From Siphonodentalium dalli (taxonomy: Eukaryota > Mollusca > Scaphopoda > Gadilida > Siphonodentaliidae): DNA of 64,000 bases. The stretch spans positions 125,624,754-125,688,753 of the forward strand of contig CP136061.1 in NCBI GenBank assembly GCA_032622095.1, read 5' to 3'. The notes below the pieces were generated by a model. It saw only the letters and a list, made by a program, of their open reading frames with translations, made no database searches and was not told where the DNA came from. Position numbers and translations under genes: made by a program. Shown here one piece after another: positions 34,614 to 56,749 of the stretch (position 1 is the stretch's first letter; every line of letters begins with the position of its first letter).

Positions 34614-34619
34614 TCGATC
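34614..34619. repeat. Polinton left target-site duplication (TCGATC)
   Basis: TCGATC lies directly before the terminal AGAAGAATAGGGG and is repeated exactly after the right end at 50741-50746. A 6-bp duplication and 5'-AG...CT-3' ends are the Polinton standard. Confidence 0.95.
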
Positions 34620-35056
34620 AGAAGAATAGGGGTCTCCTTCGCCCCACTTCTAAAAATAGAATCTTTGGGGTCTAAAATTGGTTGTGGGTGTCTCGTTCGC
34701 GTCACATCTAAAAATAGAATCTTTGGGTCTAAAAATTGGTTGTGGGTGTCTCGTTCGCCTCACTTCTCAAAATAGAATCTTTGGGTCTAAAAATTGTTTG
34801 AGGGTAAAATTGTTCGAGGATAAAATTGGTTGTACTAAAATATTCCAAATTATCAAAAACCCCAAAAAAAAATATCCAAACTTCCAAATTATCAAAACCC
34901 CAAAATTTCAAAACTTCAAATATGTCTAATCTTCCAAAAATTTCAAATCTTCCAAAAATTTCAAATCTTCCAAATATTTCAAAAATTTCAAAACCACCAA
35001 AATGTCGAATGTTAAATTATTTGCGCGTAATATCTTTCGTTATTTTTTTTGTTCAA
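34620..35056 (+). repeat. Polinton left terminal inverted repeat
   Basis: 437 bp, inverted copy of 50286-50740. The outer part contains three direct copies of a unit of about 53 bp including AAAATAGAATCTTTGGGTCT. The inner part is a 9/18-bp minisatellite of TTTCAAATCTTCCAAAAA. Short ORFs here are by-products of these repeats. Confidence 0.95.
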
Positions 35057-36056
35057 CCAATGTTTCAATGTATTTATTAATCGATGTTTAGAAAATAGCT
35101 TTATTGGACATTGTGACCATCGATATGAATGCATACATTACAGTGTTTATCGGACGCAGTTCATATAATTGTCATACCTGAAAATAGACACCATTACTTT
35201 TACATAAATAATAAAGAGCGTTTATTCTTTACACTCTCTCTACCCCAGATGAAGTTATTGAGTATATGACAGGTGTGTATTATCGTGAATTATTGGAAGT
35301 ATTGAGATGTACTATGTTGAATCACTAACGGTCGAAAATTGTAATGTGAAATTACAACCCTCCAGAATGAATTGTCATATTCGCTGTACACGCAATCACA
35401 CACGCGACATTGGTAGTAACAATGTGTCTTTCACACCTTTGCTTTACCAAATGAATTCTATTATTTCCCCGGTCACAGTTATATGTCATTCAGAAAACAT
35501 ATCGATTTAATGTCTGAACAAACGGGTTAGTATCAATTAAGGTTGATAAACTGTGTCATTCACACGATAATTAGTTATCCAAAACATGCATACATATTAC
35601 GTCAGGTCGTGAGACACTCAATTATAGACATTGCTTTGATGACATTGTTATAACAACATTACGTAATAACCACTTATCACTCCATTCACACTTACGATCA
35701 TATACCGAAACTACAGGTAGCACCGATGATGTAACATTATATCACTGCTATTGTACCAATGATAGGTTCAGACAAGTTCGATGTTTAGAAAAATAGATAA
35801 TCTGCAGGTGTTCTCAGCGGGGGGGAACACAGGGTTACGTAATAATAACCAGTTAAACAACTAATGTTGTCTCGTCCGTAAAAACCAATTATCGGCCTAT
35901 TCATACATTACGTTCATATATATAATCTTATATAATGTTACGTCATCCGTGCTTGCATATGTTCGGGATTTTATGGTATAAAAATATATATGACTAAGCT
36001 GTATTCCATATAGTGAATAGACGCCGTTGTAATCACTACTCAGGACTTCTCGAAAA
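35057..36056. other. Polinton left subterminal non-coding region
   Basis: About 1 kb without a credible gene, upstream of the polymerase. It contains an ATAAAGAGCGTTTATT motif near 35212, shared with the family M MITEs, and TTACGTAA palindromes near 35660 and 35833. The polymerase promoter is at its right end. Confidence 0.6.
35977..35990 (+). promoter_or_regulatory. TATA box of the Polinton polymerase gene
   Basis: TATAAAAATATATA lies 80 nt before the polymerase ATG, a fitting distance for a short 5' UTR. It is a candidate site for the host TBP or for the element's own TBP homologue. Confidence 0.55.
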
Positions 36057-37799
36057 ATGGCTGAAGAAATAATGACACCTCTGACAGTGGATGAAATTTA
36101 TGAAATAGAATGTATTCTGCAAGACATCGAAGAATACGACAAGGCTATCGTAGCTTATCAACTGGATGAAGATATAATTGAAGCATCTACGCTTTGTTCA
36201 GGAGATGACCCATGGCCGAACCAAATCGGATACGGAGAACATGATGCGCCTAAAAATGATGTTAACAACTCACAACCCGGTACAGCTGGACCATCAGGAT
36301 TACAAAACCGAGAAGACGAACATACACCTCATCAAGAAGGAGCTGTAAAATCAGACAATCAAACAGCCGGCAGTTCTGATATTCAAATAACCGGATATAG
36401 CATTCGCAAAAGGAGTGAACGAACCTTCGGAAACAATTTGGCAACACAGAGAACATATGAGATCAAATTAGATGAAATTTACAAAGAGAAAAAGTTAATC
36501 GACATATACAGGAATCTACATTCAATGTTCGAGGACACTATTCAAAGAGCTCGTGGAAATTTGGCTGACAATGATCTTGGCAGAGTTATCATTCACCATG
36601 AGAGTTTGGACAACCCTATAATAGTTCCGTTACAAACGTTGCAAACGTTAAATGCTAACACTGTGATTGACAGAATCGAACTCGTTTTGAACAGCAACCA
36701 AACACTGACTGTTAATCAAAGTTTCCGAATAGATATAGGCACCATCGAGTTACCTAAAGGCGGAGCACGGAGGAGGATAACGGCTTTACATGATGAAAGT
36801 GACAATCTAAGAAATAAAACATCGATCGTTACGATTGAAAATACCGACAATATGTGTATGGCTCGGGCTATCGCCACATGTTGGTGTAAATTAAATATTT
36901 GCAGTCCTGATGAATGGCTGGAAATAACACAGAATAGAGGAACCAGAAATAATTTACAACTCATCATGGAATACAGAAAAGTACCGAGCAATTATTACAA
37001 CCATATGAGGACCAAAAAACGTACTGAACAAGGAAAATTAACCAAAGCAATTAGTGTCATCGCAGGTGTATCAACAGACAGACCAGCTAGTTTAGCAGAT
37101 CTAAAAGCATTCGAGGACACTCTGAATTTGACAATACTAGTCGTCAGTGCTAGACTGGGTAATAAATTCATTACCAGCGCGCCTACAGACGGTATAGAAA
37201 GACCCGTGATATATTTATATCTCACTGCTAATGAACATTTCCACGCTATACAATCCATAACGGGATTCTTTAGCGCAATATATTTCTGTGTGCATTGTTT
37301 AAAACATTATTCAACCAAAGGAAAGCATTATTGTGAACACACCTGTTTCGTGTGTAAAAGTGATAAATGTGAACAAAGTGAAAACAAAGAACATTGTTCA
37401 GATTGTAATATGACGTGTATGTCTCATCAATGTTTCGTGCGTCATAAAGCAAAACCTATTAATCAAGCTTCGGGAGAAACGACAGCTCCTTGTCAAAAAT
37501 GGTGGAAATGCTTGGACTGTACAAAAGTCATGGAGAGAGGGAAAAGACGTTCGAATCAACACGTGTGCGGAGAAACATTTTGTAGATCGTGTGACAAATA
37601 CACAATGGGAGCACACGAATGCTATGTAAGGGCCATACCTCCCGTTACTGATGATGAAAAAGCTAAATTCTGTTTCTTCGACTTCGAAACCATTCAACAT
37701 GATATATTGGAATGTTCTGAAGGATATGCACCTTTACATACAAAGGATTGTCAGGACTGTAAAGAGGATCATATATGCAAGAAATGTGCTAAGTGTCAG
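36057..37799 (+). CDS. PolB: Polinton protein-primed DNA polymerase B, exon 1
   Basis: First 581 codons of the family B DNA polymerase that replicates the element from its termini. The N-terminal 250 residues are low-complexity and acidic. A region with DNMC (D264, C267) and NEHFH (H394, H396) recalls the cysteine and histidine sites of OTU-type proteases, but this is only a resemblance. A cysteine/histidine-rich stretch (about residues 410-535) probably binds zinc. The exonuclease I motif FFDFET (D542, E544) lies near the end. The exon ends at a consensus donor, CAG followed by GTGAGT at 37800, in phase 0; reading on would stop at 37893-37895 in intron sequence. The ATG follows a short A-rich leader downstream of the TATA box. 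Confidence 0.9.
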
Positions 37800-38904
37800 G
37801 TGAGTCTTAACCTAATTGTAATATATATATATGTAACACATTACAGTCGAAATCACGATAACGTAACGCTCTTTATTAAAGGCGCGCATAAGTAGAGACG
37901 CTCTTTCATTTTTAAAAATTATATTAGATTATCGCTGAACGCTCTTTAGCTGTTACCTCGCGTGTGAGATTACCATATAACAATTACATACTTGAATTCG
38001 ACCAAAGTTAAGGGGTCTCAATATTAAAATTCAACTGAGTCACAGATGTTAAACCGAGTAATTAACTTTTTTAATTCTTGACACATTGAAAAAATGTGTA
38101 ACATATTTTTTTGTGAAAAGAGATTTTGTAATTGTTATATAGTAAACTAACATAATATATAATTGTTTTAACTTTATTGAACTTGATATCTGCGTGATTG
38201 AATCGTTAATTATACAGGCTATATGTCGGATCATGATATACATTTATAATATTGACACGTAGATTGGAACGAGTAATTTTTAGGATCAACCAACAAACAA
38301 TATTAATACGTCAACGCTCTTTATTAAAGGCGCGCATAAGTAGAGACGCTCTTGCATTTTTAAAAATTATATTAGATTATCGCTGAACGCTCTTTAGCTG
38401 TTACCTCGCGTGTGCGGTTACCATATAACAATAACATACTTGAATTCGACCAAAGTTAAGGGGTCTCAATATTAAAATTCAACTGAGTCACAGATGTTAA
38501 ATCGAGTAATTAACTTTTTTAATTCTTGACACATTGAAAATGTGTAACATATTTTTTTGTGAAAAGAGATTTGTAATTGTTATATAGTAAACTAACGTAA
38601 TATATAATTGTTTTAACTTTATTGAACTTCATAGCTGCGTGCTTGAATCGACAATTATACAGGCTATATGTCGATGGTCGGATCATGATATACATTTTTA
38701 ATATTGACACGTAGATTGGAACGAGTAATTTTTAGGATCAACCAACGAACAATAGTAATACGTCAACGCTCTTTATTAACGTTGAACCTATACCAAAACA
38801 TTTTTTTTTTTAAATAATTATCTGAACAAAGTGTAGACGTTTTATTTTGTTTTTTTTATTATCGATAAAGCTAGAGGTTAAAACGTTCAATTATTACTTT
38901 TCAG
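37800..38904 (+). other. Phase-0 intron in the polymerase gene, with 450-bp tandem duplication
   Basis: The 1105-bp intron has a GTGAGT donor and a pyrimidine-rich TTATTACTTTTCAG acceptor. Most of it is a head-to-tail duplication of about 450 bp: units 37865-38312 and 38313-38763, plus the start of a third at 38764. Each unit opens with AACGCTCTTTATTAAAGG and contains two further ACGCTCTTT motifs. Coding frame and polymerase motifs join cleanly across it. Confidence 0.85.
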
Positions 38905-41730
38905 AACTGTTTAAAAACATGGTGCGGAAAAGTCCAGCATACACCGAACTTCCTCGTCGCCCAAACAGCTTGCTACGAATGCATGCATGAATCGTTGGAA
39001 GTGAAACCGAACTGTAGAAATTGCGGACCTCTATGTGATGCGTGTATCGACAGTGATGCGAAGAAGAAGAAGAAGAGTGACCGAAATTTATGTTCGGATA
39101 CATGCGGACTCCGAGAGGTTATATTTAGCGGTCCTGATACCGGTGAAAAGTTTGGAAAATGGTTATTCTCGGAACAACACAAGGGATTCATAGCACTGGC
39201 TCACAACTTCAAGGGTTACGATGGATATTTTCTCATGGAATATCTCATTGATCAATCATTGAGACCCAAAGTTATATATAATGGATCCAAATTGATGTAC
39301 CTATACGTGGAAAAAGATCTTCATATCAAAGTACTGGACAGTCTCAGCTTTCTACCAATGAAGTTGGCACTGTTACCGAAAACTTTCGGTCTGGATGGCG
39401 AGAAAAAAGGATGGTTCCCGCACTTTTTCAATAAATCAGCCAACCAGAATTATGAAGGACCCTATCCGGATGCCAAATATTACGGCGCTGATTATATGAG
39501 TGTGGCTGAACGAAAAGACTTCACGAAATGGCACGCTGCTCAAACAAATGCAGTTTTCATCTTCAAGAAAGAATTATCGGATTATTGTCGTAGTGATGTC
39601 AATATTTTGAGACAAGCTTGCATAAAATTCAGAACCCACATCATGAATGCGACTGGAAATATACAACCCGTAATTGACGAGTTTTCTGGCGATATGAAGT
39701 TCAAACTGGTTGGTGCTGTTGATCCATTCCAATACGTTACAATCGCATCGGTATGTATGGGTATATTCAGAACGAAATTCGTCGACGAGGAATGGAGAGT
39801 GCGTCTAAGTACCGAAGGGAAAACGTGGCTTCCTGCTAAATGTAAAGATGGAACTTTGTCTATTTTATACAAAGGTGAATGGGTTCAAGAAACAAAACTT
39901 GAAGATGAACGCGGCGTACAAATTCGTGAGAAAGAATTTCTCAAATCCCAGATAGCTCGAATCCCCAAGACATCATATAAAGATCAATACAGCAAAAGTT
40001 CGATTCAATGGCTGGAATGGATGATGTTCAAAGACAAAGTTCACATAACTCACGCTTTGAACGGCCGTGAAAAGAAACTCGATGATGCAAAGTACAGATT
40101 GGATGGCTATTGCGAAGAATTAAACACGGCATTCGAATTTCACGGATGTCAATTCCATGGATGTGAACTTTGTCTGAGTCACGATAGAGACGTAGTCAAG
40201 AATCCGATAACCAACCAGACACCTAATGAATTATACGGACTCACACAGAAAAAGAAGAAGTTTATAGAAAGTCGAGGCATGAAATATGTGTGCATTTGGG
40301 AACACGAGTTCGTCGCTGCCCGAAAGACTAATCCGGAGCTTCGTGACTTCATTGCTAGTTTAGACATTGTTGAACGGCTAGAGCCTAGAGACAGTTTCTT
40401 CGGCGGCAGAACGAATGCAACTAAATTACACTACAAAACTGCCGTTGGTGAGAAAATACATTATTTTGACTTCACGTCGCTGTATCCAAGTGTGCTCAAA
40501 TACTCTCGCTACCCGATTGGACACCCGAAAATCATTTTGGGCGATGACATTACCGAGCTTAAGGATTACTTCGGAATAGCGCAAGTCAAGATTTTACCAC
40601 CTAATGGACTCTATCACCCCGTATTACCGTATCGATCCGAAGGTAAACTGAAGTTTCCACTGTGCAGGACTTGTGCTGATAATGAAAATCAACGACCTTG
40701 CACGTGTACGTGCCAACAGAGAGCTATTACCGGTGTTTGGTGTATTCCTGAACTGGAGACAGCTGTCAAAGTGGGATACAAGATTCTCAAAATATATGAA
40801 ATATACCATTGGACCGAAACGTCAGACTATAGCCAACAAAATGGATTATTCACGGAATATATAAACACATTCTTAAAGTTCAAGCAGCAGGCTAGCGGTC
40901 CTCCGGATTGGATAAAATCTAACGAAGACATGGATAAATACATCACAGCGTATAAAGACAACGAAGGTATATTACTGGACAGAGAAAGCATCGAAAAGAA
41001 TCCAGGACTGAGGCAAATCAGTAAGCTCATGCTCAACTCATTTTGGGGGAAGCTAGGCCAAAACCAGAATTTCAAACAGACCGAGTATTTCCATGAATCG
41101 GAACAAGACAATCTATTCCAACTCATTTCAAATCCAATGAAACAAATGGAAAATTTTCATGTCATAACTGATGACATTCTTCAAATGGAGTGGACCTATC
41201 GAAAAGACTGTGTGCCTTGTGGAGCTGCGAATAACATATATTTGGCCACATTCACGACGTGTCACGCTCGATTAATGCTATATGAAGTTATTCATTCCTT
41301 GGACAGAAGAGTATTATATTACGACACGGATAGTTGTGTATTTAGCAGCACTGAGGATCAAATTAATCCCCCACTGGGTGACTATTTGGGACAACTGACC
41401 AGCGAGCTAGATCCTGATGAATACATCGAAGAATTTGTTTCTGGAGGCCCCAAGAATTACGCTTATCGAACAAATAAAGCTAAAGAGACGTGTAAAGTTC
41501 GGGGGTTCTCTTTGAACTTTGAAAATTCACAGTTCATCAATTTCCAGACGATTAAAGAGCTGTTAGAATCTGGAAGCACAGTGCCCATCACCACAACCAA
41601 TCCAAGGAAAATATGCAGATCGAAAGGAAAAAGAAAAATATATAACAGATCTGAGGACAAACAGTACCGAGTTGTTTATACCAAACGCAGACGATTGGAT
41701 AACATGGATACACTGCCATATGGATATTGA
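38905..41730 (+). CDS. PolB: Polinton protein-primed DNA polymerase B, exon 2
   Basis: Codons 582-1522 plus stop of the polymerase (whole protein 1522 residues, in range for Polintons). The exon opens with a cysteine-rich zinc-finger-like stretch and continues into exonuclease II (HNFKGYD, N682 and D687) and exonuclease III (YCRSD, Y808 and D812). Polymerase motifs follow: A (DFTSLYPS, D1103), B (KLMLNSFWG, K1288 to G1296) and C (YYDTDS, D1388 and D1390). All catalytic carboxylates are present. The C-terminus is basic, with a KRRRL motif that may be a nuclear signal. The upstream acceptor sets the start; the first in-frame ATG of the exon, at 38983, is internal. No lesion is visible, so the enzyme looks functional. 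Confidence 0.95.
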   Translation, partial: NCLKTWCGKVQHTPNFLVAQTACYECMHESLEVKPNCRNCGPLCDACIDSDAKKKKKSDRNLCSDTCGLREVIFSGPDTGEKFGKWLFSEQHKGFIALAHNFKGYDGYFLMEYLIDQSLRPKVIYNGSKLMYLYVEKDLHIKVLDSLSFLPMKLALLPKTFGLDGEKKGWFPHFFNKSANQNYEGPYPDAKYYGADYMSVAERKDFTKWHAAQTNAVFIFKKELSDYCRSDVNILRQACIKFRTHIMNATGNIQPVIDEFSGDMKFKLVGAVDPFQYVTIASVCMGIFRTKFVDEEWRVRLSTEGKTWLPAKCKDGTLSILYKGEWVQETKLEDERGVQIREKEFLKSQIARIPKTSYKDQYSKSSIQWLEWMMFKDKVHITHALNGREKKLDDAKYRLDGYCEELNTAFEFHGCQFHGCELCLSHDRDVVKNPITNQTPNELYGLTQKKKKFIESRGMKYVCIWEHEFVAARKTNPELRDFIASLDIVERLEPRDSFFGGRTNATKLHYKTAVGEKIHYFDFTSLYPSVLKYSRYPIGHPKIILGDDITELKDYFGIAQVKILPPNGLYHPVLPYRSEGKLKFPLCRTCADNENQRPCTCTCQQRAITGVWCIPELETAVKVGYKILKIYEIYHWTETSDYSQQNGLFTEYINTFLKFKQQASGPPDWIKSNEDMDKYITAYKDNEGILLDRESIEKNPGLRQISKLMLNSFWGKLGQNQNFKQTEYFHESEQDNLFQLISNPMKQMENFHVITDDILQMEWTYRKDCVPCGAANNIYLATFTTCHARLMLYEVIHSLDRRVLYYDTDSCVFSSTEDQINPPLGDYLGQLTSELDPDEYIEEFVSGGPKNYAYRTNKAKETCKVRGFSLNFENSQFINFQTIKELLESGSTVPITTTNPRKICRSKGKRKIYNRSEDKQYRVVYTKRRRLDNMDTLPYGY

Positions 41731-42019
41731 ACGAGGTACGTAATATATATAATTTAATCGTCTATATTTGATCAAGGTTGTAATGAGAGTGTAAACATTC
41801 GATCGATGGTAGTTATCGGATTATACTAAGACTTGTTCAAACACGTTCGATGTTAGATAACATCGAGCGTGTATGAACACGTATTACTATAAACGTATGG
41901 CCGTCATTGGTCAATTTATCCAAGGTGTCCATTTTTTCGATCTATAAAATGCTACCCGATCCAGTTCACAATTACAAATTCGGTAGTCCTATACTGTGCG
42001 TGTGAAATATTCTATACAG
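41731..42019 (+). promoter_or_regulatory. Post-polymerase spacer with hairpin, TATA box and predicted 5' UTR exon
   Basis: Arms 41835-41855 and 41858-41878 form a hairpin of 21 bp with two mismatches (GTTCAAACACGTTCGATGTTA side), possibly a transcript-end or regulatory structure. CTATAAAATG at 41943-41952 is a good TATA box. About 70 nt further on, CAG/GTTAGT at 42019/42020 is a plausible splice donor for a non-coding first exon of the downstream PC4-like/TBP transcript. Confidence 0.5.
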
Positions 42020-42125
42020 GTTAGTTATGAATTAGTTGTTTTTTTTCTATCATTACATTTTTACCTCCTGTACAATCTCATTTTGGTTTATACTTAAACC
42101 AAAAAAAACAACTATGTTTTTTTTT

Positions 42126-42686
42126 TTATTTTCTCAACGAAGAGTCACCATAATTCCAGATTATTCCGAATGACCAGATTAATTCATTCTCTAATTCTGA
42201 AATATATTTCGATTTACTTGTAGAAATGTAATCCAAAATCACGCCGCTGTTAAGTATTTGTTCAATCGTGAACAGTGTACACGGTTCACGGAGAATGATA
42301 TATCCGTGAATTATTGTCACTTCTTCAAAACTTCTCTGATTGAAAACCCAGTCTCGGTATTCTGCAAATCTCACAAAGTTATCTCCAATAAGTTCACGAA
42401 TGTCATGTATTTTGTTTTTAGGAACGCCTCTAAATACCCAGCGATTTGAAAACATTTGATTCAATATATCCGGTAAGAAATCAGTTTCAAATTCAGACCT
42501 AGCAATCAAAGATTTCAATCGTTGTACAGGAAAATATCCTTCATCTATATTCTTCAGTATTATTTTAATTTCTCTTATAAACCAATTGTGTAGTAGTTGT
42601 TTTTTTATTTCTGGATTTATAGTTGACATTTCAATTAGCTGATTGTATATTTTCTCCAGTATTTCTGCGGGTAGTATTCTCTCCAT
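42126..42686 (-). CDS. Polinton hypothetical protein, antisense, 186 residues
   Basis: I do not recognise this protein. The open frame runs on upstream to 43280 only because the GC-rich repeat has no stops. The chosen start is the ATG at 42686, which leaves a normal-composition protein of 186 residues beginning MERILPAEILEKIYNQL. That opening resembles the first helix of an F-box (LPxEIxxxI), but nothing later supports an F-box protein. The rest is predicted helical with scattered aromatics and no cysteine motif or membrane segment. It sits antisense between the polymerase and the PC4-like gene, inside the predicted 5' UTR intron. Whether it is translated is unproven. Confidence 0.55.
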   Translation of the reverse strand: MERILPAEILEKIYNQLIEMSTINPEIKKQLLHNWFIREIKIILKNIDEGYFPVQRLKSLIARSEFETDFLPDILNQMFSNRWVFRGVPKNKIHDIRELIGDNFVRFAEYRDWVFNQRSFEEVTIIHGYIILREPCTLFTIEQILNSGVILDYISTSKSKYISELENELIWSFGIIWNYGDSSLRK

Positions 42687-42733
42687 AATGAACTGACTCA
42701 ATGACTCAATTTTCTTATTCTTATTGAGTATGC

Positions 42734-42972
42734 GAGGGGGGCGGGCCTCCCCCAACAGGGGCGAGCGGACCCCCCATGGGCGGGGGCGAGGGGACCCCCA
42801 GGGCGGGGGCGGGCGGGCTGGCCTCCCCCTCCCCAGGGCGGGCGGGCGGGCGGGGCGGGCCTCCCCTCCCCAGGGCGGGCGGGCGGGCGGGCCTCCCCTC
42901 TCCAGGGCGGGCGGGCCTCCCCCCTCCCCCAGGGCGGGCAGGGCGGGCGGGGGGCGGGCCTCCCCCACACCC
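42734..42972. repeat. Extremely GC-rich minisatellite
   Basis: About 240 bp of GGGCGGGC / CCTCCCC units in an otherwise AT-rich element. Runs of three or more G on the plus strand could form G-quadruplexes. ORFs across it in several frames are composition artefacts. Confidence 0.85.
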
Positions 42973-43081
42973 AACATCCACCAAACACATGAGCGGACTC
43001 CTTTCGGACTTTTGTACTCTCGATGTGTAACTGATAAGTAATGTTTTGTTTTCTTATTTTCCAGGTTCAAAATAAAAAACA

Positions 43082-43693
43082 ATGACTGATCAACCCGATG
43101 TTGAAGGAAACCAACGGACTGAAACCAACGAGAGGGCGTTCCATCCACAATGCTTAGCCCCGTTAGGAAATGACATTTTCCTATTTGACGGCCGATTCCT
43201 GGGAAATCTGTATATACACATACGAGAGTGCGGTGAAAGTTCTGCGGGCCAAAAATTTCCGACAAAATCTGGAATAACATTAAATCTAAGGAGATTCAAA
43301 GAGTTGAAATCTTACTTAGCAGATATACATCAAGAAGTGGTCAGTTATCGTACCGGTGAAGACGATGTATTCATGAGACGTCATATCGGAGGGAATTTCT
43401 TCATTACGATAAAGAGCGGCATCCCGCGTGTTGACATTCGCAGGTATTGGCTGCCTGAACATTCAGATGATTTGTGTGCAACCAAATACGGAATATCTCT
43501 GACATTCGACCAATTTGAAGAACTAGTTGGAGCTATATTCGTCCTGTGTGCTAATATTCCTGAAATTGATCAGACTGTGCAGTGCTATTTGACCGACGAT
43601 CACCAAAACCAGGAAGGATCTTTAAGATGTATGGAATGCTGCCCCAACGGCGATAGAACATGTTTGATTAACCGGATGCAGACATTGATCTAA
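43082..43693 (+). CDS. Protein with two PC4-like (p15) ssDNA-binding domains
   Basis: 203 residues. Two regions match the PC4/p15 coactivator pattern of a beta-sheet ending in (V/I)x(I/L)R, then PTKxGIxL and a helix. Domain 1, about residues 31-88, contains GNLYIHIRE and FPTKSGITLN. Domain 2, about 103-166, contains VDIRRYW and ATKYGISLTFDQFEEL. PC4 binds single-stranded and melted promoter DNA and bridges activators to the TBP-containing preinitiation complex. A cysteine cluster (C183, C186, C187, C194) ends the protein. The gene stops 11 nt before the TBP homologue. Assignment is by motif recognition and is fairly secure for both domains. Alternative: a virus-type ssDNA-binding protein of the same fold. 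Confidence 0.7.
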   Translation: MTDQPDVEGNQRTETNERAFHPQCLAPLGNDIFLFDGRFLGNLYIHIRECGESSAGQKFPTKSGITLNLRRFKELKSYLADIHQEVVSYRTGEDDVFMRRHIGGNFFITIKSGIPRVDIRRYWLPEHSDDLCATKYGISLTFDQFEELVGAIFVLCANIPEIDQTVQCYLTDDHQNQEGSLRCMECCPNGDRTCLINRMQTLI

Positions 43694-43704
43694 ACATTAC
43701 TCCT

Positions 43705-44229
43705 ATGATGCTACGAATAACTAATGTCGTATGTTCTGCAGATTTGAACTGTTCTATTAATCTAAGGGATTTGACACTCGGCTGTTCGAACATTGAATAC
43801 AATTCCAAAAAGTTTAGCGGAGTTGTATGGAAACATTCTAAATTCGGTGGATGTTGCCTCGTGTTTAACACGGGTAAAATCGTTGTTAACGGGCGTTCTG
43901 ATAGTGTCAAACAGACACGAGTTCGATTGCGTCGGTACGCTCGACATATTCAAAAATGTGGTTGGCGAGTGAGATTAAATTCCATAAAAATTTTGACAAT
44001 GTCTGCATTTTGTCAGTTAAATGGAAAACTTGACTTAAACGTTTTAGTGAAACTTATGGAATGTTCTTACGAATTAGAGCTGTTCCCTGCGGCAATGTTC
44101 AGACGTGAGAAAATACATTTTACATGCTTTCATAATGGAAAAATTGTGATTACGGGCATTAAAAGTGAAAAGCAGATGTTAAATATTGTATATCCTACCA
44201 TATGTGAACTTGAATTACTTTCAGAATAA
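43705..44229 (+). CDS. TATA-binding protein (TBP) homologue, core domain only
   Basis: 174 residues forming just the bipartite TBP saddle: repeat 1 about residues 4-88, repeat 2 about 92-173. Conserved TBP features include EYNSKKF, FNTGKIVVNG, RRYARHIQKCG, SYELELFP, HNGKIVITG and a final VYPTI. The four phenylalanines that kink TATA DNA are all present (F37, F54, F127, F142), so DNA binding is likely retained. TBP nucleates transcription by binding the TATA box in the nucleus. There is no N-terminal extension. The start is ATGATG at 43705; the frame is open upstream only to 43672 and differs from the PC4-like frame. It is strongly divergent from cellular TBP, so not a recent host copy. TBP is not among the genes usually listed for Polintons. 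Confidence 0.85.
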   Translation: MMLRITNVVCSADLNCSINLRDLTLGCSNIEYNSKKFSGVVWKHSKFGGCCLVFNTGKIVVNGRSDSVKQTRVRLRRYARHIQKCGWRVRLNSIKILTMSAFCQLNGKLDLNVLVKLMECSYELELFPAAMFRREKIHFTCFHNGKIVITGIKSEKQMLNIVYPTICELELLSE

Positions 44230-44230
44230 A
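44225..44230 (+). terminator. Polyadenylation signal overlapping the TBP stop codon
   Basis: AATAAA includes the TAA stop of the TBP homologue (44227-44229), implying a very short 3' UTR for the rightward transcript. Confidence 0.5.
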
Positions 44231-44560
44231 TATATATATGTATCGATTATCTATTTTTTTCATTCGGGGGATGGCTCACATACCTTTGTTTTTTAGGCTT
44301 TTGACAAAACAAACAAAAACAATAGATTTTTTTGTTTGTTTTGACAACAGGCCTAATACCACCTCACCGGACTCTATCCACAGACCCCCCCCACCCCACC
44401 CTCTCAACCCAGTCATATACATATATATATATATATATATATTTTCCCAGTCATACATATGATAATATAAGAACGATAAATGATTGTATTTACAATATTT
44501 TATTTATATACATAATATAATTTAAAGAGTGTTTCTCTCGTTGTCGCTAATGAAGAGCGT
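44230..44560. other. Convergent intergenic region of the Polinton
   Basis: Separates the rightward and leftward gene blocks. It contains an (AT)n run at 44415-44443, a C-rich stretch, and an AATAAA on the minus strand (44504-44499) serving the leftward genes. An AAGAGCGTTTAC motif near 44552 and an AAAGAGTGTTT near 44524 resemble the MITE and intron motif. No gene. Confidence 0.6.
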
Positions 44561-45007
44561 TTACAGAATATATTTCAACATAAAATCCTTAATAATTAAA
44601 TCATTATACATATAATTATTGGCACTGAAACGTCTCATTATATTTTCTAGACTGTATCCGCACAGTTTATAGAATGCAAAGTATATGCAATAGGGACCAC
44701 ATATATTAGAACCCTGTAATCTGTAAGCATTGCACTCGTAACGAGGTCCATTCAATAACAACACGTGTTTAAATCGTCCGTTGTAACACTCGGGTTTTAA
44801 TCCCATAGGGTCGAAGAACTCTGATACGTTATGTTCCTGGAATGTCATCAATATCCAGTGGCGTCCAGGTTGGCTACTCTCGTCTGTGTTAACTATATAC
44901 ATCCGGGGATATTGGATATAAAGAGGTAATTTGTCTATGGGACAAACATCTATCTCATTATGGTTTGTGAAACTATTTATCGCCCTCATGAGTCCGCGTG
45001 TATTCAT
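44561..45007 (-). CDS. PRO: Adenovirus-type maturation cysteine protease
   Basis: 148 residues, typical of Polinton PRO. The catalytic triad is recognisable: H50 in GRHW, D66 in FFDPMG and C103 in SNICGPYC, with the oxyanion glutamine Q98 in RLQGSN. In Polintons and adenoviruses this enzyme cleaves capsid and core precursors during particle maturation. Its start codon overlaps the stop of the major capsid gene by one base (TAATG), the tightest coupling in the leftward block. The frame is intact. Confidence 0.92.
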   Translation of the reverse strand: MNTRGLMRAINSFTNHNEIDVCPIDKLPLYIQYPRMYIVNTDESSQPGRHWILMTFQEHNVSEFFDPMGLKPECYNGRFKHVLLLNGPRYECNAYRLQGSNICGPYCIYFAFYKLCGYSLENIMRRFSANNYMYNDLIIKDFMLKYIL

Positions 45008-46269
45008 TATTCAATGCAAACTTTACGACTCTCGTCAACTTTGAGAACGGCAGGAAATTTTGCGTAAACGATTACAGTACAATTGTCTTTCAAAGCCGAT
45101 GAGAATTTAATCTCGAGGCGTGTGTGACCTTTGTGCGGTATGACTCTATCGTGATTAATTCCTTGCGGGTTTATCCGATATATGCAATAACCTTTCGCAT
45201 AATCCTCATAAGTAATATGAACGGCTTTTCGTTTCGCATCTTTTATTATCGTATTGTAAGCTTCTACATATTCCTTACTGGTAAAGTTCGGTTGTAGTGC
45301 TTGGGCGGGCATAGACTGCCCGTTGACGTAAAATCCGACGAAGTTGCATCCAAAAGTCGCAAAGTTGAACGGGTTCTTATCGCGTGAACCGCTTTCAGCC
45401 TTTGATGATACTAAGCCAATAATACAGCTACTGGGTACGTTTCCTTGAAATAGATTATCTTCTCCCAAACTGAATGCACCTTTTGACACTGTATACGTCT
45501 TTATGATAGATTTTGAAAAAGGATAACACGCGTTCTTTTTCTTGAGTGACTCAGTATGACTGAGTAATACACCGGGGTTAACTTTCACAGTGGCTAGTCT
45601 CAAATTAGCTTCCTGTATTTTCAACTTGTATGTCTCAGTGGTTCCTGCATACATCAGTCTAAAAACATCTCTCGTCTGCCAGAATTTTAATGTGAGCGGG
45701 AGACCATTTAGTAGTAATTTGTCCTGTTGGAAGAAGTCAAGCTGAATTGATCCCATAATATCCATTATTTGACTAGTACGGGTTGTTTTGGACCTGTAAT
45801 ACAGGCCAGAGTTCCCGCTTTTCGAATCTGCCAGGTCCATACCACCTGCCGTGTCCTTTTCGAACGCTTGTCCACGTAGCTGTTCCTTACGTTCAGTTTC
45901 TAAGAGTACATCGAAATATGCTTTGTATGGATAATTCGGCCCGACTTGACTCACGGGAACTTGCTGTATATTCAAATCGACCTGCGAAAATATTGAATGT
46001 AGGGGTGCATTTATCAGACCCACATCGTCATTAACGGTTAGAGCCGAACCATCTTGCTTGGTTATTTTGAGTTTGAGAAGTAGCAATGTCCGTTTGAGGT
46101 CCATGTAGGTTGTGGCCATGGCGGGAATATTGAACTCTAAAGCTGCAGTGTCTGTCAGCTGATTCACGGGTCTGTAGTTTATCCATTCTGTCGCTTGTAT
46201 TCCGCTGTCAACCGCGGGCGATTCAAATAATGCCAATTTAGAGGTATGGTACTCTCTGTATTCATTCAT
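45007..46269 (-). CDS. MCP: Major capsid protein, double jelly-roll
   Basis: 420 residues. The N-terminal half has the pattern typical of Polinton major capsid proteins (often annotated as F54H12.2-like in invertebrate genomes): an early ESPAVDSGIQATEWINYRP segment, LHSIFSQVDLNIQQ, and YPYKAYFDVLLETERK. It then continues through a DxLLLNGLPLTLKF strand into the second barrel. Such proteins trimerise into the icosahedral capsid shell. Assignment rests on family resemblance, length and position between the minor capsid block and the protease. The start overlaps the end of the upstream small basic ORF by 4 bp. No lesion. Confidence 0.85.
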   Translation of the reverse strand: MNEYREYHTSKLALFESPAVDSGIQATEWINYRPVNQLTDTAALEFNIPAMATTYMDLKRTLLLLKLKITKQDGSALTVNDDVGLINAPLHSIFSQVDLNIQQVPVSQVGPNYPYKAYFDVLLETERKEQLRGQAFEKDTAGGMDLADSKSGNSGLYYRSKTTRTSQIMDIMGSIQLDFFQQDKLLLNGLPLTLKFWQTRDVFRLMYAGTTETYKLKIQEANLRLATVKVNPGVLLSHTESLKKKNACYPFSKSIIKTYTVSKGAFSLGEDNLFQGNVPSSCIIGLVSSKAESGSRDKNPFNFATFGCNFVGFYVNGQSMPAQALQPNFTSKEYVEAYNTIIKDAKRKAVHITYEDYAKGYCIYRINPQGINHDRVIPHKGHTRLEIKFSSALKDNCTVIVYAKFPAVLKVDESRKVCIE

Positions 46270-46598
46270 GGTTTATCGAAAAAGGGGGTTTTCACTTTCT
46301 TAGGGTTATGAGCCAAATCGTTAGGTAACACCCTCTTATTGTTTTTTTTGGACGCCTTACGTGCTTGTGTCAACTTATTTTCTGCAACTTCGGCTTTGGC
46401 CATTTCAATCGCTTGCGCTATGGGTGTCACTACGTTAATATGCGGTTTTAGAACGTCTTCTTCTTCTTCACTATCGCTATTTTGAGTTTTGTCAATAAAG
46501 TAGCGACCCTCATTATCTGGCGTTAACTTCCCATTAATCATGTCCCTGAAATGTTTTCTCCACTTTTCAATATCGGTTGGAATATACGTGATCGACAT
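46266..46598 (-). CDS. Small Polinton protein, acidic centre and basic tail
   Basis: 110 residues. An N-terminal helical segment (EKWRKHFRDMINGKL) is followed by an acidic run (DSEEEED) and a lysine-rich tail (KKNNKR, NPKKVK) that could bind DNA or act as a nuclear signal. It overlaps the minor capsid gene by 33 bp upstream and the major capsid gene by 4 bp downstream. Position and composition suggest a capsid cofactor or core protein, but I do not recognise a family. Confidence 0.7.
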   Translation of the reverse strand: MSITYIPTDIEKWRKHFRDMINGKLTPDNEGRYFIDKTQNSDSEEEEDVLKPHINVVTPIAQAIEMAKAEVAENKLTQARKASKKNNKRVLPNDLAHNPKKVKTPFFDKP

Positions 46599-47004
46599 GT
46601 TTCTTCAGATGTAGTGTACAGGTCACTCTTTTTTCTGCATTTATTTTAGAAAGTTTATCGCCTCTTATAAAAATCCTGAGACGCTGAAGTTTATCCTGTC
46701 TTACGTTTATGTAGAATGAGTCCTCAAAACTCCGCCAATGACCCGTATCACGTGTGTCTCTCTTTATAACCCGGAGGATGGGGGATGATGTGTCGCAGGC
46801 TATTGATTCTCCACATATGTCCGAACAAATATATAATAAATCCGTGTCTATATGGTCAGTTATGTTTATGTCTTTCAAACAACATAACCACGCTCCTTCC
46901 AATATTAATACACCAGGTAACTCTATTGTGAAGTCGAGAGGACGATTATCTGGATATTTATCTATGGAATCGTCGCTAGTCAGGTACAGATAATAATTAT
47001 CCAT
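46567..47004 (-). CDS. Minor capsid (penton-type, single jelly-roll) protein
   Basis: 145 residues. The start, with YLTSDDSIDKYPDNRPLDF and then LEGAWLCCLKDI, is the typical opening of Polinton and adintovirus-like penton proteins: short strands, an Asn-rich turn, a tryptophan in the second strand. These form pentamers at capsid vertices. It sits immediately upstream of the small basic ORF and the major capsid gene. Length and frame are normal. Confidence 0.8.
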   Translation of the reverse strand: MDNYYLYLTSDDSIDKYPDNRPLDFTIELPGVLILEGAWLCCLKDINITDHIDTDLLYICSDICGESIACDTSSPILRVIKRDTRDTGHWRSFEDSFYINVRQDKLQRLRIFIRGDKLSKINAEKRVTCTLHLKKHVDHVYSNRY

Positions 47005-47008
47005 ATGA

Positions 47009-47449
47009 CTAGTTTCTATTTTGTTTCAAAAGAGAATCAATGTTCATCTCTTCTCTTATAGTTTTATCAACATCACTGAATATATACTTGAAGGCAGACC
47101 ACTGGTTATACGGAATACTTATAATCGCGGGAGTGTTATTCACAACTCGCCTAATGCGTGTATAAATGCGCCCTTGATTATTACATAATGTAACAGTAAT
47201 GTTTGATCGTATTGTCCACTTTTTCACGAACCCACAGGGGTGTTGTTCGTAATCATGGGGGCGTGACTCATTCGTATGACGTAATTCATAGTCCACCGTC
47301 TGACGTGGTATCTTCTTTGGAACAAATATAACTGGTAGTGACAGAGTTATTACCATAATAGTAATTCCTATCCATTTAAGGAGATTCATATGTAGACGAC
47401 CGCGTTCTGTTTGAAACATATTCGTCAAGGTATCTGTTCTATTATTCAT
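47009..47449 (-). CDS. Membrane protein with possible PC4-like domain
   Basis: 146 residues. A single strongly hydrophobic helix at about residues 22-43 (alternative start M21) is followed by a 100-residue domain. Residues 78-134 follow the PC4 pattern: strands TIRSNITVTL and GRIYTRIRRV, then IISIPYNQWSAFKYI and SDVDKTIRE, similar to the isoleucine-strand/QW-helix of PC4. A membrane-anchored PC4 fold would be odd, so this may be convergent or a derived capsid or vertex function. It lies 4 bp upstream of the minor capsid gene and 35 bp downstream of the integrase. The membrane helix is clear; the PC4 resemblance is an inference. Confidence 0.65.
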   Translation of the reverse strand: MNNRTDTLTNMFQTERGRLHMNLLKWIGITIMVITLSLPVIFVPKKIPRQTVDYELRHTNESRPHDYEQHPCGFVKKWTIRSNITVTLCNNQGRIYTRIRRVVNNTPAIISIPYNQWSAFKYIFSDVDKTIREEMNIDSLLKQNRN

Positions 47450-47484
47450 GATTGTAATGATTTCCCGCGGATAGCTTGCTCTTA

Positions 47485-48603
47485 TTAATTTTGATATCTG
47501 TCGACATCAGACTCTAAAATCCATGAATTAAATTTGTCAGGCCATGAATGCCAGTGCACCAGGACTTCAGTTTGACCCTTTCGTTTCCTCTTTTTGACAA
47601 TTTTATCTATTCTGTAAACTGTTTCGTCATCAACGCGCACCCCTTGAAGTTCTGACTCGTAGAAAGCGCCCTCAATGTTTTCATCCAAGAAATCTGTCAA
47701 TGTATACAAGGGTATGTTCTGCCTGTAAAACCTCTTAGTCACTTTGAACAACTCTCCAGTCCATTTCTGAGAATATTCTCGGTCAAAAACTGCTTTGGTG
47801 TGTGATATTCTAACGATATCATTTACATTGTATTTGAACTTTTTCTTCAATTTACTTTTAACACCTCCCTTCTGTCTTATTAACCACTGATCGAGACGAG
47901 ACTCATCTTCATTCTCAACAGTTATGGAGTCAGGGGTGGTGCCTAACGAACGATGTATTGTATGGTTATAACTTTTCACAATATCTTGTAGAATGTCGAT
48001 ATATCTAGCATTATTATGCTTTATCATATAACGTGAAATCTTCTGCTTTATAGTTTTTATGACCCGTTCCGAATAATTGGCTTTCATTTCGTTTTGCGTA
48101 AACATTTGAGATATATGAAGACCCTTAAGGTAACTTTTGACCCGTTTGTTTGTGAACTCCGAACCGCGATCCGTTCGGAGGATGCGCGGGGTTCTTCCAC
48201 CTTCAAATATATGTTTCATAGCATTGATCACATTAATTGCAGTTTTCCTCTTTATAGCTTCACACCATAACTTCCTAGAAAAAATGTCAATCATTACTAA
48301 CACGTAGGTGTAATTGTCGTTGTCTTTGGAAACATCATTCATATCCATGAGGTCTCCATCCCATTGACTGTCAGAAGCGTTTACAATAACACGAGACCTC
48401 GGGAATTTTCGTCTAACACTTTTTGTCAGGGAATAACTTTCATGATTTTGTAGCCACGCCACAATCTCGCGCTTGGAAATGTTGTGCTTATTTTCAGATT
48501 TTACAGTCTGATGCAACTTTGTAGCTCCTGAGTACGATGCGGGGTGACCCGGATTAAAATAAATTGAACTCAAATAATCTTTCCACTCGGCCATATTGTT
48601 CAC
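47485..48603 (-). CDS. INT: Polinton integrase with chromodomain
   Basis: 372 residues, retroviral-type (rve) DDE integrase. Catalytic residues are D84 (WDGDLMDM), D145 (LRTDRGSEF) and E179 (NYSER), giving D-60-D-33-E spacing. The C-terminal region, about residues 326-371, is a chromodomain (YRIDKIV, VHWHSWPDKFNSWIL) with the aromatic positions Y330, W351 and W354. It may direct insertion to modified histones. The enzyme integrates the element and creates the 6-bp duplications seen here. The start overlaps the preceding ORF by 4 bp. The frame and all three catalytic residues are intact. Confidence 0.95.
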   Translation of the reverse strand: MNNMAEWKDYLSSIYFNPGHPASYSGATKLHQTVKSENKHNISKREIVAWLQNHESYSLTKSVRRKFPRSRVIVNASDSQWDGDLMDMNDVSKDNDNYTYVLVMIDIFSRKLWCEAIKRKTAINVINAMKHIFEGGRTPRILRTDRGSEFTNKRVKSYLKGLHISQMFTQNEMKANYSERVIKTIKQKISRYMIKHNNARYIDILQDIVKSYNHTIHRSLGTTPDSITVENEDESRLDQWLIRQKGGVKSKLKKKFKYNVNDIVRISHTKAVFDREYSQKWTGELFKVTKRFYRQNIPLYTLTDFLDENIEGAFYESELQGVRVDDETVYRIDKIVKKRKRKGQTEVLVHWHSWPDKFNSWILESDVDRYQN

Positions 48604-48971
48604 AGTGATATCCAGCGTTTCTTCTTTATCTTGGTCAGCTTACCGGCGATTATACCCGGAGGTCTAGATATTTCACGCTTAACCCCTCTTATTTTCTTTT
48701 TTCTTTGCTTAGTATGTGTCTTTTTCGATGTGTTAACTTCTGATTTTTGGATTGCATCCTGAGGTTCAGTCGTTTGAACTGTATTAACAATCTGATTATT
48801 CATCGGGTCCATTTCTTTATCCATTTCATCGGAATGGCTACTATTGTTTGCCGAGATGTCGCTGTGTTCAATGTTAGACTCCGATGAAACTTTTTTGTGT
48901 TCACTTTTTTCAGTGTACCTCATATATCTTTCATACGGGATCAAAACAGTTTTCTTCACAGACTCCATCAC
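48600..48971 (-). CDS. Small Polinton protein with KKTVLIPYERYMRY motif
   Basis: 123 residues. An N-terminal VLIPYERYMRY segment and a C-terminal RPPGI...KKKRWISL ending flank a low-complexity acidic/serine centre and a lysine-rich stretch (KKTHTKQRKKK). Proteins of this shape recur next to the integrase in other Polintons, but I know no function. It overlaps its neighbours by 4 bp on both sides (ATGA). The basic part suggests nucleic-acid binding. Confidence 0.7.
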   Translation of the reverse strand: MMESVKKTVLIPYERYMRYTEKSEHKKVSSESNIEHSDISANNSSHSDEMDKEMDPMNNQIVNTVQTTEPQDAIQKSEVNTSKKTHTKQRKKKIRGVKREISRPPGIIAGKLTKIKKKRWISL

Positions 48972-49291
48972 AAAAACTGTTTCAATTTAGGTTCAACGAT
49001 GTTCAACATCAAAGCAATGGCGGTTGAGTGATTATTCACACTTTTTCTTTTCCTCAACAAGCTCACAGATTTATCACCCAAGAATATATAAAATGATTTA
49101 TATCGTCGTAATTTAGCTTTTTGTTGAACTGTAACTGTTAAACTATCATGTAGTAAATTGATCGTAATTTCAACCAGAACTTTCAACTGATTATTAGTTA
49201 TCGATGTCAATAATGCGTTTCGTTGAGATCTTGATTGGGTTGATGTCAATAGTCTGACAAAATTCAACTCATTACGTAATAATCGACTCAT
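48968..49291 (-). CDS. Small conserved-type Polinton protein
   Basis: 107 residues, mainly helical and basic, with LTSTQSRSQRNALLTSITNNQL followed by a leucine-rich helix and a lysine/arginine region (KAKLRRYK). This helix-rich pattern is common for a short ORF between the ATPase and integrase in Polintons; its function is unknown. It begins 40 bp after the ATPase stop and overlaps the next ORF by 4 bp. Confidence 0.7.
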   Translation of the reverse strand: MSRLLRNELNFVRLLTSTQSRSQRNALLTSITNNQLKVLVEITINLLHDSLTVTVQQKAKLRRYKSFYIFLGDKSVSLLRKRKSVNNHSTAIALMLNIVEPKLKQFL

Positions 49292-49331
49292 TTTATCGTC
49301 GCGACTCAGCTCCGATACTGTCCCCTTCTTA

Positions 49332-49997
49332 TTACGTAGTAGGTACGTAAATTATAGGGTCTTGGTTGGGAAACACGTCTGTTCGTAGCCTGTATTTATC
49401 CTCAGTGTGAGGGGACATATCTATTATAAGATACGCAAATGGTTTCTTCATACAATCCTTGTATGCATCAATGAGTACTTTAGATTTACCGGGATACAAT
49501 TGTCTACCCAATGTGGAAATTTGTGATCCATCCCTCAAATTTTTGAATAAAATTAGATATCCTGTGTTTAAGGCTATAGTTCTCGCAGCCTTGCCTTGTG
49601 CGTATAAATTTTGTGAAATAAACAGCACCGAAAGACAGCGATGATGAGTTTGCTGCGTAAATAGTGTTTCAATCTCTTTTTGGTCAATAATGCGATGCAT
49701 CAAGTCGTCTAATATTAACATAATATGTTTACCGTCAGCAAATTCTTCGATTTCTGTTTGGGTAGGTAATCCTTGATGCATGACCAAATTTTCGATTGAT
49801 GATTCAATTTCATCATAGAAATTTTGATAAATACCGTAACAGTACATTATTTTCTTAGGTGGATCTCTAGAATACATTCCATTAAGATTTTGCAGGAATC
49901 TGTAGACCCATCTCGTCTTACCAGAACCAGTTGGTCCGGTGATGCAAATACTAGAACAAGGTTCAAATGGTATGGAGCTATGGTTAATTGGACCCAT
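49332..49997 (-). CDS. ATP: FtsK/HerA-type genome-packaging ATPase
   Basis: 221 residues. Walker A is GPTGSGKT (21-28). Walker B is HIMLILDDL (91-99, D97 and D98). A polar sensor, FISQN (126-130), follows. The enzyme pumps DNA into capsids in related viruses and is a Polinton hallmark. It is the first gene of the leftward block. Its ATG directly follows a run of nine A, with a TATATAAG box about 50 nt upstream. No lesion. Confidence 0.93.
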   Translation of the reverse strand: MGPINHSSIPFEPCSSICITGPTGSGKTRWVYRFLQNLNGMYSRDPPKKIMYCYGIYQNFYDEIESSIENLVMHQGLPTQTEIEEFADGKHIMLILDDLMHRIIDQKEIETLFTQQTHHRCLSVLFISQNLYAQGKAARTIALNTGYLILFKNLRDGSQISTLGRQLYPGKSKVLIDAYKDCMKKPFAYLIIDMSPHTEDKYRLRTDVFPNQDPIIYVPTT

Positions 49998-50045
49998 TTT
50001 TTTTTTGTGTTCACTGTGTCCTATTTATTAGTAGCTATACAGTTC

Positions 50046-50053
50046 TTATATAC
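50046..50053 (-). promoter_or_regulatory. TATA box of the leftward Polinton block
   Basis: TATATAAG on the minus strand, 49 nt before the ATPase start. Only this gene in the block has an obvious TATA element, consistent with a long leftward transcript. Confidence 0.5.
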
Positions 50054-50285
50054 ATCATAAGTAAACATTTGTTATGGCTGTTGTAAATGAATTACCAGGA
50101 TGACACTGCAAGCTATAATATTATAAAAACCTAGTTCTTATAACATCATTGGTTTTGGTAAGTGATGTGAAGGTGTTTGGTGGATGTTGGGGGTGGGTGT
50201 GGGCTGGTATTATCAGGTTGGTCTGTGATTGAGTGTACAAAATGTCTTGTCAAGTGAACACCTGCACATTTCATGAAAAAAATAT

Positions 50286-50740
50286 TTGAACAAAACAAAT
50301 AACGAAAGATATTACGCGCAAATAATTTAACATTCGACATTTTGGGGGTTTTGAAATTTTTGAAATATTTGAAATTTTTGAAATTTTTGGAAGATTTGAA
50401 ATTTTTGGAAGATTTGAAATTTTTGGAAGATTAGACATATTTGAAGTTTTGAAATTTTGGGGTTTTGATAATTTGGAAGTTTGGATATTTTTTTTTTGGG
50501 TTTTTGATAATTTGGAATATTTTAGTACAACCAATTTTATCCTCGAACAATTTTACCCTCAAACAATTTTTAGACCCAAAGATTCTATTTTGAGAAGTGA
50601 GGCGAACGAGACACCCACAACCAATTTTTAGACCCAAAGATTCTATTTTTAGATGTGACGCGAACGAGACACCCACAACCAATTTTAGACCCCAAAGATT
50701 CTATTTTTAGAAGTGGGGCGAAGGAGACCCCTATTCTTCT
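50286..50740 (-). repeat. Polinton right terminal inverted repeat
   Basis: 455 bp, inverted copy of 34620-35056, differing mainly by one extra 18-bp minisatellite step (two 9-mers of TTTCAAAAA/TTTCAAATA) and a few bases. It ends ...CCCCTATTCTTCT directly before the duplicated TCGATC. Confidence 0.95.
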
Positions 50741-50746
50741 TCGATC
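50741..50746. repeat. Polinton right target-site duplication (TCGATC)
   Basis: Exact copy of 34614-34619. Confidence 0.95.
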
Positions 50747-56664: not shown

Positions 56665-56749
56665 CCTAATAGTAGATACGTTGCTGCGAAAGTTGGCAAT
56701 AACTTCTATTATGAATATACAAGTGTAGCAGCTGAGTGCAGACACTTTT

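Follow-up and report, generated by a model that had tools for sequence, protein, structure and literature searches.

Genes for general transcription factors are usually ascribed to cells or to giant viruses, and the giant viruses that carry a TATA-binding protein (TBP) as a rule bring their own RNA polymerase. The stretch analysed here (the window, 64,000 nucleotides of the scaphopod Siphonodentalium dalli, C1:125624754-125688753 in a genome of 2.23 Gb and 9 contigs) was found to contain a Polinton (Maverick) element in which one gene codes for a TBP and its neighbour for a PC4-like protein. The Polinton core genes were listed as int, ppolb, atp, pro, two capsid proteins, pz and pw (PMC8097293, available in part), and the element was found to share with this core the family B DNA polymerase (PolB), the rve-chromodomain integrase, the candidate ATPase-like and C5-protease-like genes (both matches below the curated cut-offs) and the inverted ends, whereas TBP and PC4 were absent from the list as far as available, in agreement with the earlier note on this DNA, which had placed TBP outside the standard gene set. 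In Cymbomonas, integrated elements putatively derived from mirusviruses were described to contain TBP genes sporadically (PMC10675990, in the part available), whereas those elements lie in an alga and contain neither a DNA polymerase gene nor a double jelly-roll capsid gene. No description of a Polinton TBP was found in the open-licence literature compared, in the available parts of its texts (including PMC10675990, PMC11071308, PMC10120064, PMC8905726 and PMC8097293), a scope without the original Polinton and adintovirus papers and Repbase.

A TBP homologue in the Polinton

The earlier note had described an open reading frame (ORF) of 174 residues with both TBP repeats and four intercalating phenylalanines, and all of this was borne out. 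On the + strand the frame was found to be uninterrupted between 43705 and 44229, the Pfam profile PF00352 was matched in two stretches covering both repeats (E 2.9e-32, 110.8 bits against a cut-off of 22.9), and the alignment placed the intercalating phenylalanines at F37, F54, F127 and F142. Solved TBPs were found to align with residues 5-167 (best E 1.1e-24), and the predicted structure contained their saddle fold. The ORF codes for a genuine homologue of the TATA-binding protein. Its carriage by a Polinton was upheld by the sequence, the fold, the element ends, the target duplication and the presence of the gene in 50 of 50 copies selected by PolB; TBP belongs to the regular gene set of this Polinton family.

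The Polinton TBP was found to be 30-34% identical to eukaryotic TBPs, and shared with those of human, yeast and the host the full-length two-repeat saddle, the four phenylalanines and the TFIIB stirrup glutamates, whereas the N-terminal region was absent, the stirrup of repeat 2 was shorter, the base-contact residues of repeat 2 were replaced and the gene belongs to a mobile element. TRF2 (TBPL1; in a sequence that we take to be correct) was likewise found to start with ITNVVC and to differ at yeast positions V203 and L205, whereas it lacks three of the four phenylalanines which the Polinton family keeps. Giant-virus (Nucleocytoviricota) TBPs, also genes of virus-like elements, gave fold matches in 40 BFVD rows at E <= 0.001, the best viral row being 22% identical with a template modelling (TM) score of 0.80 and E 6.1e-12, whereas a cellular TBP reached E 4.1e-18.

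Residues were classed over 124 family rows (the fragments P0028 and P0031 were left out beforehand) by the columns invariant in five cellular TBPs. Only clear-cut columns were counted, and those in which another residue was commonest while the cellular one was still present in more than six rows were not. The same commonest residue was found in 30 of the clear-cut columns and a replacement in 14. The phenylalanines at the F37, F54, F127 and F142 positions were kept in 111, 120, 120 and 88 rows, followed by the stirrup residues Y, E, P, E and L (115, 110, 116, 120 and 110 rows) and the residues R76, Y78 and R80 of the basic helix (115, 122 and 118 rows).

The face that contacts the bases was found to be unlike that of cellular TBPs, above all in repeat 2. 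Among what we take to be the 11 minor-groove base-contact positions of cellular TBPs (yeast numbers), six were replaced in the family and five in the window protein (P0001). V122 was occupied by N in 63 rows, P0001 keeping V, and T124 by N in 100 rows, followed by T in place of N159 (121 rows), S in place of V161 (120 rows), H, N or T in place of V203 (122 rows) and T, C or S in place of L205 (110 rows). These replacements lower the probability that the protein binds TATA, not that it is a TBP homologue. The classic altered-specificity TBP mutant is presumably changed at three positions, V203 and L205 among them. TBP was reported to accept TGTAAA and further variants after three second-repeat substitutions (PMC10005294, in the part available). 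With the bending and docking faces kept and the reading face changed, the residue pattern is best explained by a functional TBP whose DNA preference has changed.

Copies, relatives and phylogeny

The host's own TBP was found to be an ordinary intron-bearing gene (C6, about 155,354,088-155,368,400), with a core 31% identical to the Polinton TBP. A genome search with the Polinton TBP gave at least 150 full-length copies at 97-100% identity (150 of 453 candidates scored, a lower bound), two of them with a stop; the 148 stop-free rows were set aside as evidence because a TBP-based search favours intact copies. A PolB search, made to avoid this choice, contributed the best 50 of 2323 candidates, all 99-100% identical, which as the best-matching PolB copies lean to young elements. 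A TBP match was found at the expected offset from PolB in 43 of them, and the gene was also present in all of the remaining seven, once 11.8 kb from PolB; two of these were intact (L115, L117), and in the others (L110-L114) the gene was disrupted by frameshifts or a stop. The gene was thus carried by 50 of 50 copies and intact in 45.

In 83 TBP copies, singleton variants (39 nonsynonymous, 15 synonymous) were found to be as neutral (p 0.76), and among shared variants (18 and 15) the nonsynonymous ones were below neutral (p 0.016). In 81 copies of the PC4 gene, the singletons contained 45 nonsynonymous and 23 synonymous changes plus five stops, followed by 19 and 28 among shared variants (p 8.6e-7; direct comparison of the classes p 0.008). 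At the same 90 loci as the TBP-selected copies, six of them places sampled twice, the PC4 gene contained nine frame breaks and seven stops in 88 full rows. The pattern fits constraint on active elements with decay afterwards, modestly so for TBP alone.

One TBP copy (C7:21496372-21496893, - strand) was found inside an open frame of 383 aa, not 185. Repeated TBP matches about 2.8 kb apart were present at C2:85770832, 85773599 and 85776370 (-) and at C2:195210394 and 195213263 (-), and repeated matches likewise at C9:9109704 (-) and 9112742 (+); the spacing of about 2.8 kb looks as if the PC4-TBP part had been duplicated inside or between elements.

A protein search with the window TBP gave 30 proteins at 37-58% identity, and a profile search gave 313 matches, 120 of them listed. 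Source-given names included Pinctada imbricata (P0114), and matches were present in assemblies of bivalve symbionts, namely the Solemya velum gill symbiont (P0104, P0113), Ca. Thiodiazotropha taylori (P0081) and Sedimenticola (P0021), which are probably host DNA. Two clusters were large (P0091 with 288 sequences, P0067 with 198), as expected for repeated genes, and the relatives in other species probably also lie in Polintons. Hundreds of genes named 'TATA-box-binding protein' in one animal or bacterial symbiont assembly can be mobile-element genes, which is a warning for annotation. Scans of viral_contigs with P0001, A3, A5, PolB and the integrase gave no relatives, and two scans of genome_contigs gave none, so that no Polinton setting in another species came to light. 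A viral contig matched by alignment A2 (L001) was rejected, the match running antisense to a phage tail-type ORF.

The phylogeny proposed in the earlier note was built from 66 of the 124 rows, left after thinning at 70% identity, and six references. The Polinton TBP family formed one clade (100/99) on a long branch, which fell within eukaryotic TBP/TRF2 and apart from archaea. The clade joined human TRF2 in the free tree (98/86), but a tree without this grouping was not rejected (approximately unbiased (AU) test, p 0.456). A TRF2 origin was suggested by the free tree and not upheld by the AU test, and the grouping may be long-branch attraction. No TRF2 exons of the host were found among the genome matches listed, which were taken up by Polinton copies.

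Proposed role and alternative explanations

The best explanation of the whole, which we hold to be somewhat more probable than its denial, is a Polinton-family TBP homologue that would act in RNA polymerase II (Pol II) preinitiation at element promoters with a preference other than TATA. The PC4-TBP gene pair would be made when the element is expressed; the element TBP would kink DNA like cellular TBP, its kept stirrup would dock host TFIIB in the nucleus, and the two may then set up Pol II preinitiation complexes at certain element promoters. A core-promoter preference other than the host TATA box is most likely, because the base-reading face is largely replaced, mostly in repeat 2, and with such a preference the element genes could run outside TFIID control. 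If a selfish element of 16 kb keeps a TBP next to a PC4-like gene, Polintons could assemble preinitiation complexes of their own with Pol II taken from the host; the Pfam comparison gave no RNA polymerase match for any ORF of the element. The further proposal that an animal Polinton clade runs an orthogonal core-promoter system, kinking DNA, docking TFIIB and reading a different core element, is a tentative one. Such an element would borrow host Pol II and TFIIB and be free of TFIID, of competition for TATA and of promoter control by the host. A changed DNA preference would be a natural counterpart of the laboratory altered-specificity TBPs, in a transposon without its own RNA polymerase gene, and a tool to separate TBP sequence, TFIIB docking and TFIID control.

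Several observations weigh against the favoured explanation. The F142 position was occupied by His in 31 of the 124 rows, and P0001 contained L124 in the stirrup where cellular TBPs and 116 of the 124 rows contain Pro. The TBP gene was broken in five of the 50 PolB-selected copies, about 76 of the 83 TBP copies used for the variants were picked by the TBP search, which favours intact ones, and the direct comparison of TBP singletons with shared variants was not significant (p 0.11). Two or more of the 313 profile matches may lie outside Polintons. No motif shared upstream of 14 element genes was above chance, and no cognate promoter was found among them: the top 8-mers were present in 9 of the 14 regions, and 19 of 60 random draws reached at least 9 (for the minus-strand gene next to PC4 this test took a wrong start, the correct one being 42686).

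The earlier note had pointed to good TATA boxes and had suggested that the TBP could recruit Pol II, or compete with host TBP, at the element's promoters. The octamers exist, the third at 50052, but they are weak evidence, being mostly expected by chance in AT-rich sequence. Three matches lie before the 612-aa ORF, a count reached in 17 of 1000 dinucleotide shuffles, and the single match before the ATPase was equalled in 128 of 1000; the 250 bp preceding PolB, PC4 and TBP contained no TATA octamer. TATA boxes were accordingly rejected as proof of function, and with the altered base-contact face the claim of action at them was not supported in that form; the protein may nonetheless recruit Pol II or compete with host TBP. 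That the protein is a plain TATA binder, adding to or replacing host TBP at ordinary TATA boxes of the outer promoters, agrees with the four phenylalanines of the window protein and with the octamers placed before the 612-aa ORF and the ATPase (Table 1), but given the shuffles and the loss of the cellular residue at six base-contact positions in the family and at five in the window protein, this is unlikely.

A decoy or shut-off factor, tying up TFIIB, TFIIA or TFIID partners and damping host transcription or the silencing of the element, would explain why the base-reading face is less well kept than the TFIIB stirrup and the basic helix, but would have no need of the equally kept DNA-kinking phenylalanines, and is regarded as improbable. 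The TFIIB-facing stirrup would in turn be needless for a factor that bends DNA with the PC4-like protein at the inverted repeats, in replication or integration of the element and not in transcription; the adjacent PC4-like gene and the changed base-reading face agree with such a factor, which is nonetheless quite improbable. Passive capture of a host gene without a role could explain the broken copies, but it can hardly be reconciled with a gene that is without introns, 31% identical to host TBP, present in 50 of 50 PolB-selected copies and part of a deep clade with strongly kept residues.

Ends and gene content of the element

The element was found to contain a family B polymerase of the protein-primed type and an rve integrase, by which Polintons are recognised, together with inverted arms (34620-34992 and 50368-50740) that were 99% complementary over 373 bp. 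The terminal inverted repeats and the 6-bp duplication were present in the copy of the window, from which alone they are known, the tips lying outside the end windows of six other copies. The window sequence 34999-35813, whole or in part, was present inverted near the right ends of the copies L099, L101, L103, L105 and L109, and the inverted repeats of related copies seem to be longer than in the window.

Table 1. Positions of the features in the window
Feature	Position	Strand	Size	Basis or remark
Polinton (Maverick) element	34620..50740		16,121 bp	inverted arms, tips AGAAG...CTTCT, PolB and integrase within
Target site duplication, left copy	34614..34619		6 bp	TCGATC
Left terminal inverted repeat	34620..35070	+		about 373 bp at 99%, then 91%
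TATA-like octamer	35977			TATAAAAA; 80 bp before 612-aa ORF
612-aa ORF	36057..37895	+	612 aa	without Pfam or PHROG match; no PDB match below E 0.16; model pLDDT 31
PolB, protein-primed type	38983..41730	+	915 aa	Pfam DNA_pol_B_2, E 1.8e-51
TATA-like octamer	41943			TATAAAAT; 1,139 bp before next named + strand gene (PC4)
GC-rich tandem array	42758..42951			upstream of PC4-TBP pair; length varies from copy to copy
PC4-like gene	43082..43693	+	203 aa	two PC4 stretches; Pfam PF02229, E 4.9e-14; weak PHROG transcription regulator match
TBP gene	43705..44229	+	174 aa	two repeats (residues 3-85, about 92-167); Pfam, solved-structure matches, fold
Adenovirus-type cysteine protease candidate	44561..45007	-	148 aa	Peptidase_C5, E 6e-4, 20.0 bits against cut-off 21.3
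420-aa ORF, capsid gene possible	45007..46269	-	420 aa	without any match
rve integrase with chromodomain	47485..48603	-	372 aa	Pfam rve 4.8e-15, Chromo 8.2e-08
P-loop ATPase, probably packaging ATPase	49332..49997	-	221 aa	several AAA/Pox_A32 matches, all under cut-off
TATA-like octamer	50052 (earlier note: 50053)	-		TATATAAG; 55 bp before ATPase
Right terminal inverted repeat	50272..50740	-		complementary to left arm
Target site duplication, right copy	50741..50746		6 bp	TCGATC

No ORF of the element matched a double jelly-roll major capsid protein in the Pfam, PDB and PHROG comparison, and a capsid reading of the 612-aa ORF gained no support, its structure model being useless at a predicted local distance difference test (pLDDT) of 31.

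PC4 is a single-strand DNA binder. The PC4-like ORF was found to end 11 bp before the start codon of TBP, and no homologues of it were found at E <= 1e-3 among 104 candidates. The spacer bearing the GC-rich array ranged from 174 to 472 bp across the 48 loci measured, one further locus being without the left anchor, and contained about 67% GC against 38% in the element; the array region is possibly the promoter region of the PC4-TBP pair.

On the - strand at 42126-42686, an ORF of 186 aa starting with MERILPAEIL was found to be F-box-like by eye and without Pfam match, and the listed ORF of 384 aa is this frame plus translated repeat. The spacer before PolB contained a sequence repeated at 38136 and 38581, 445 bp apart. 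Adjoining host ORFs at 54458-56745 (-) contained a TIR domain and leucine-rich repeats, which places a gene of the Toll-like receptor type near the insertion.
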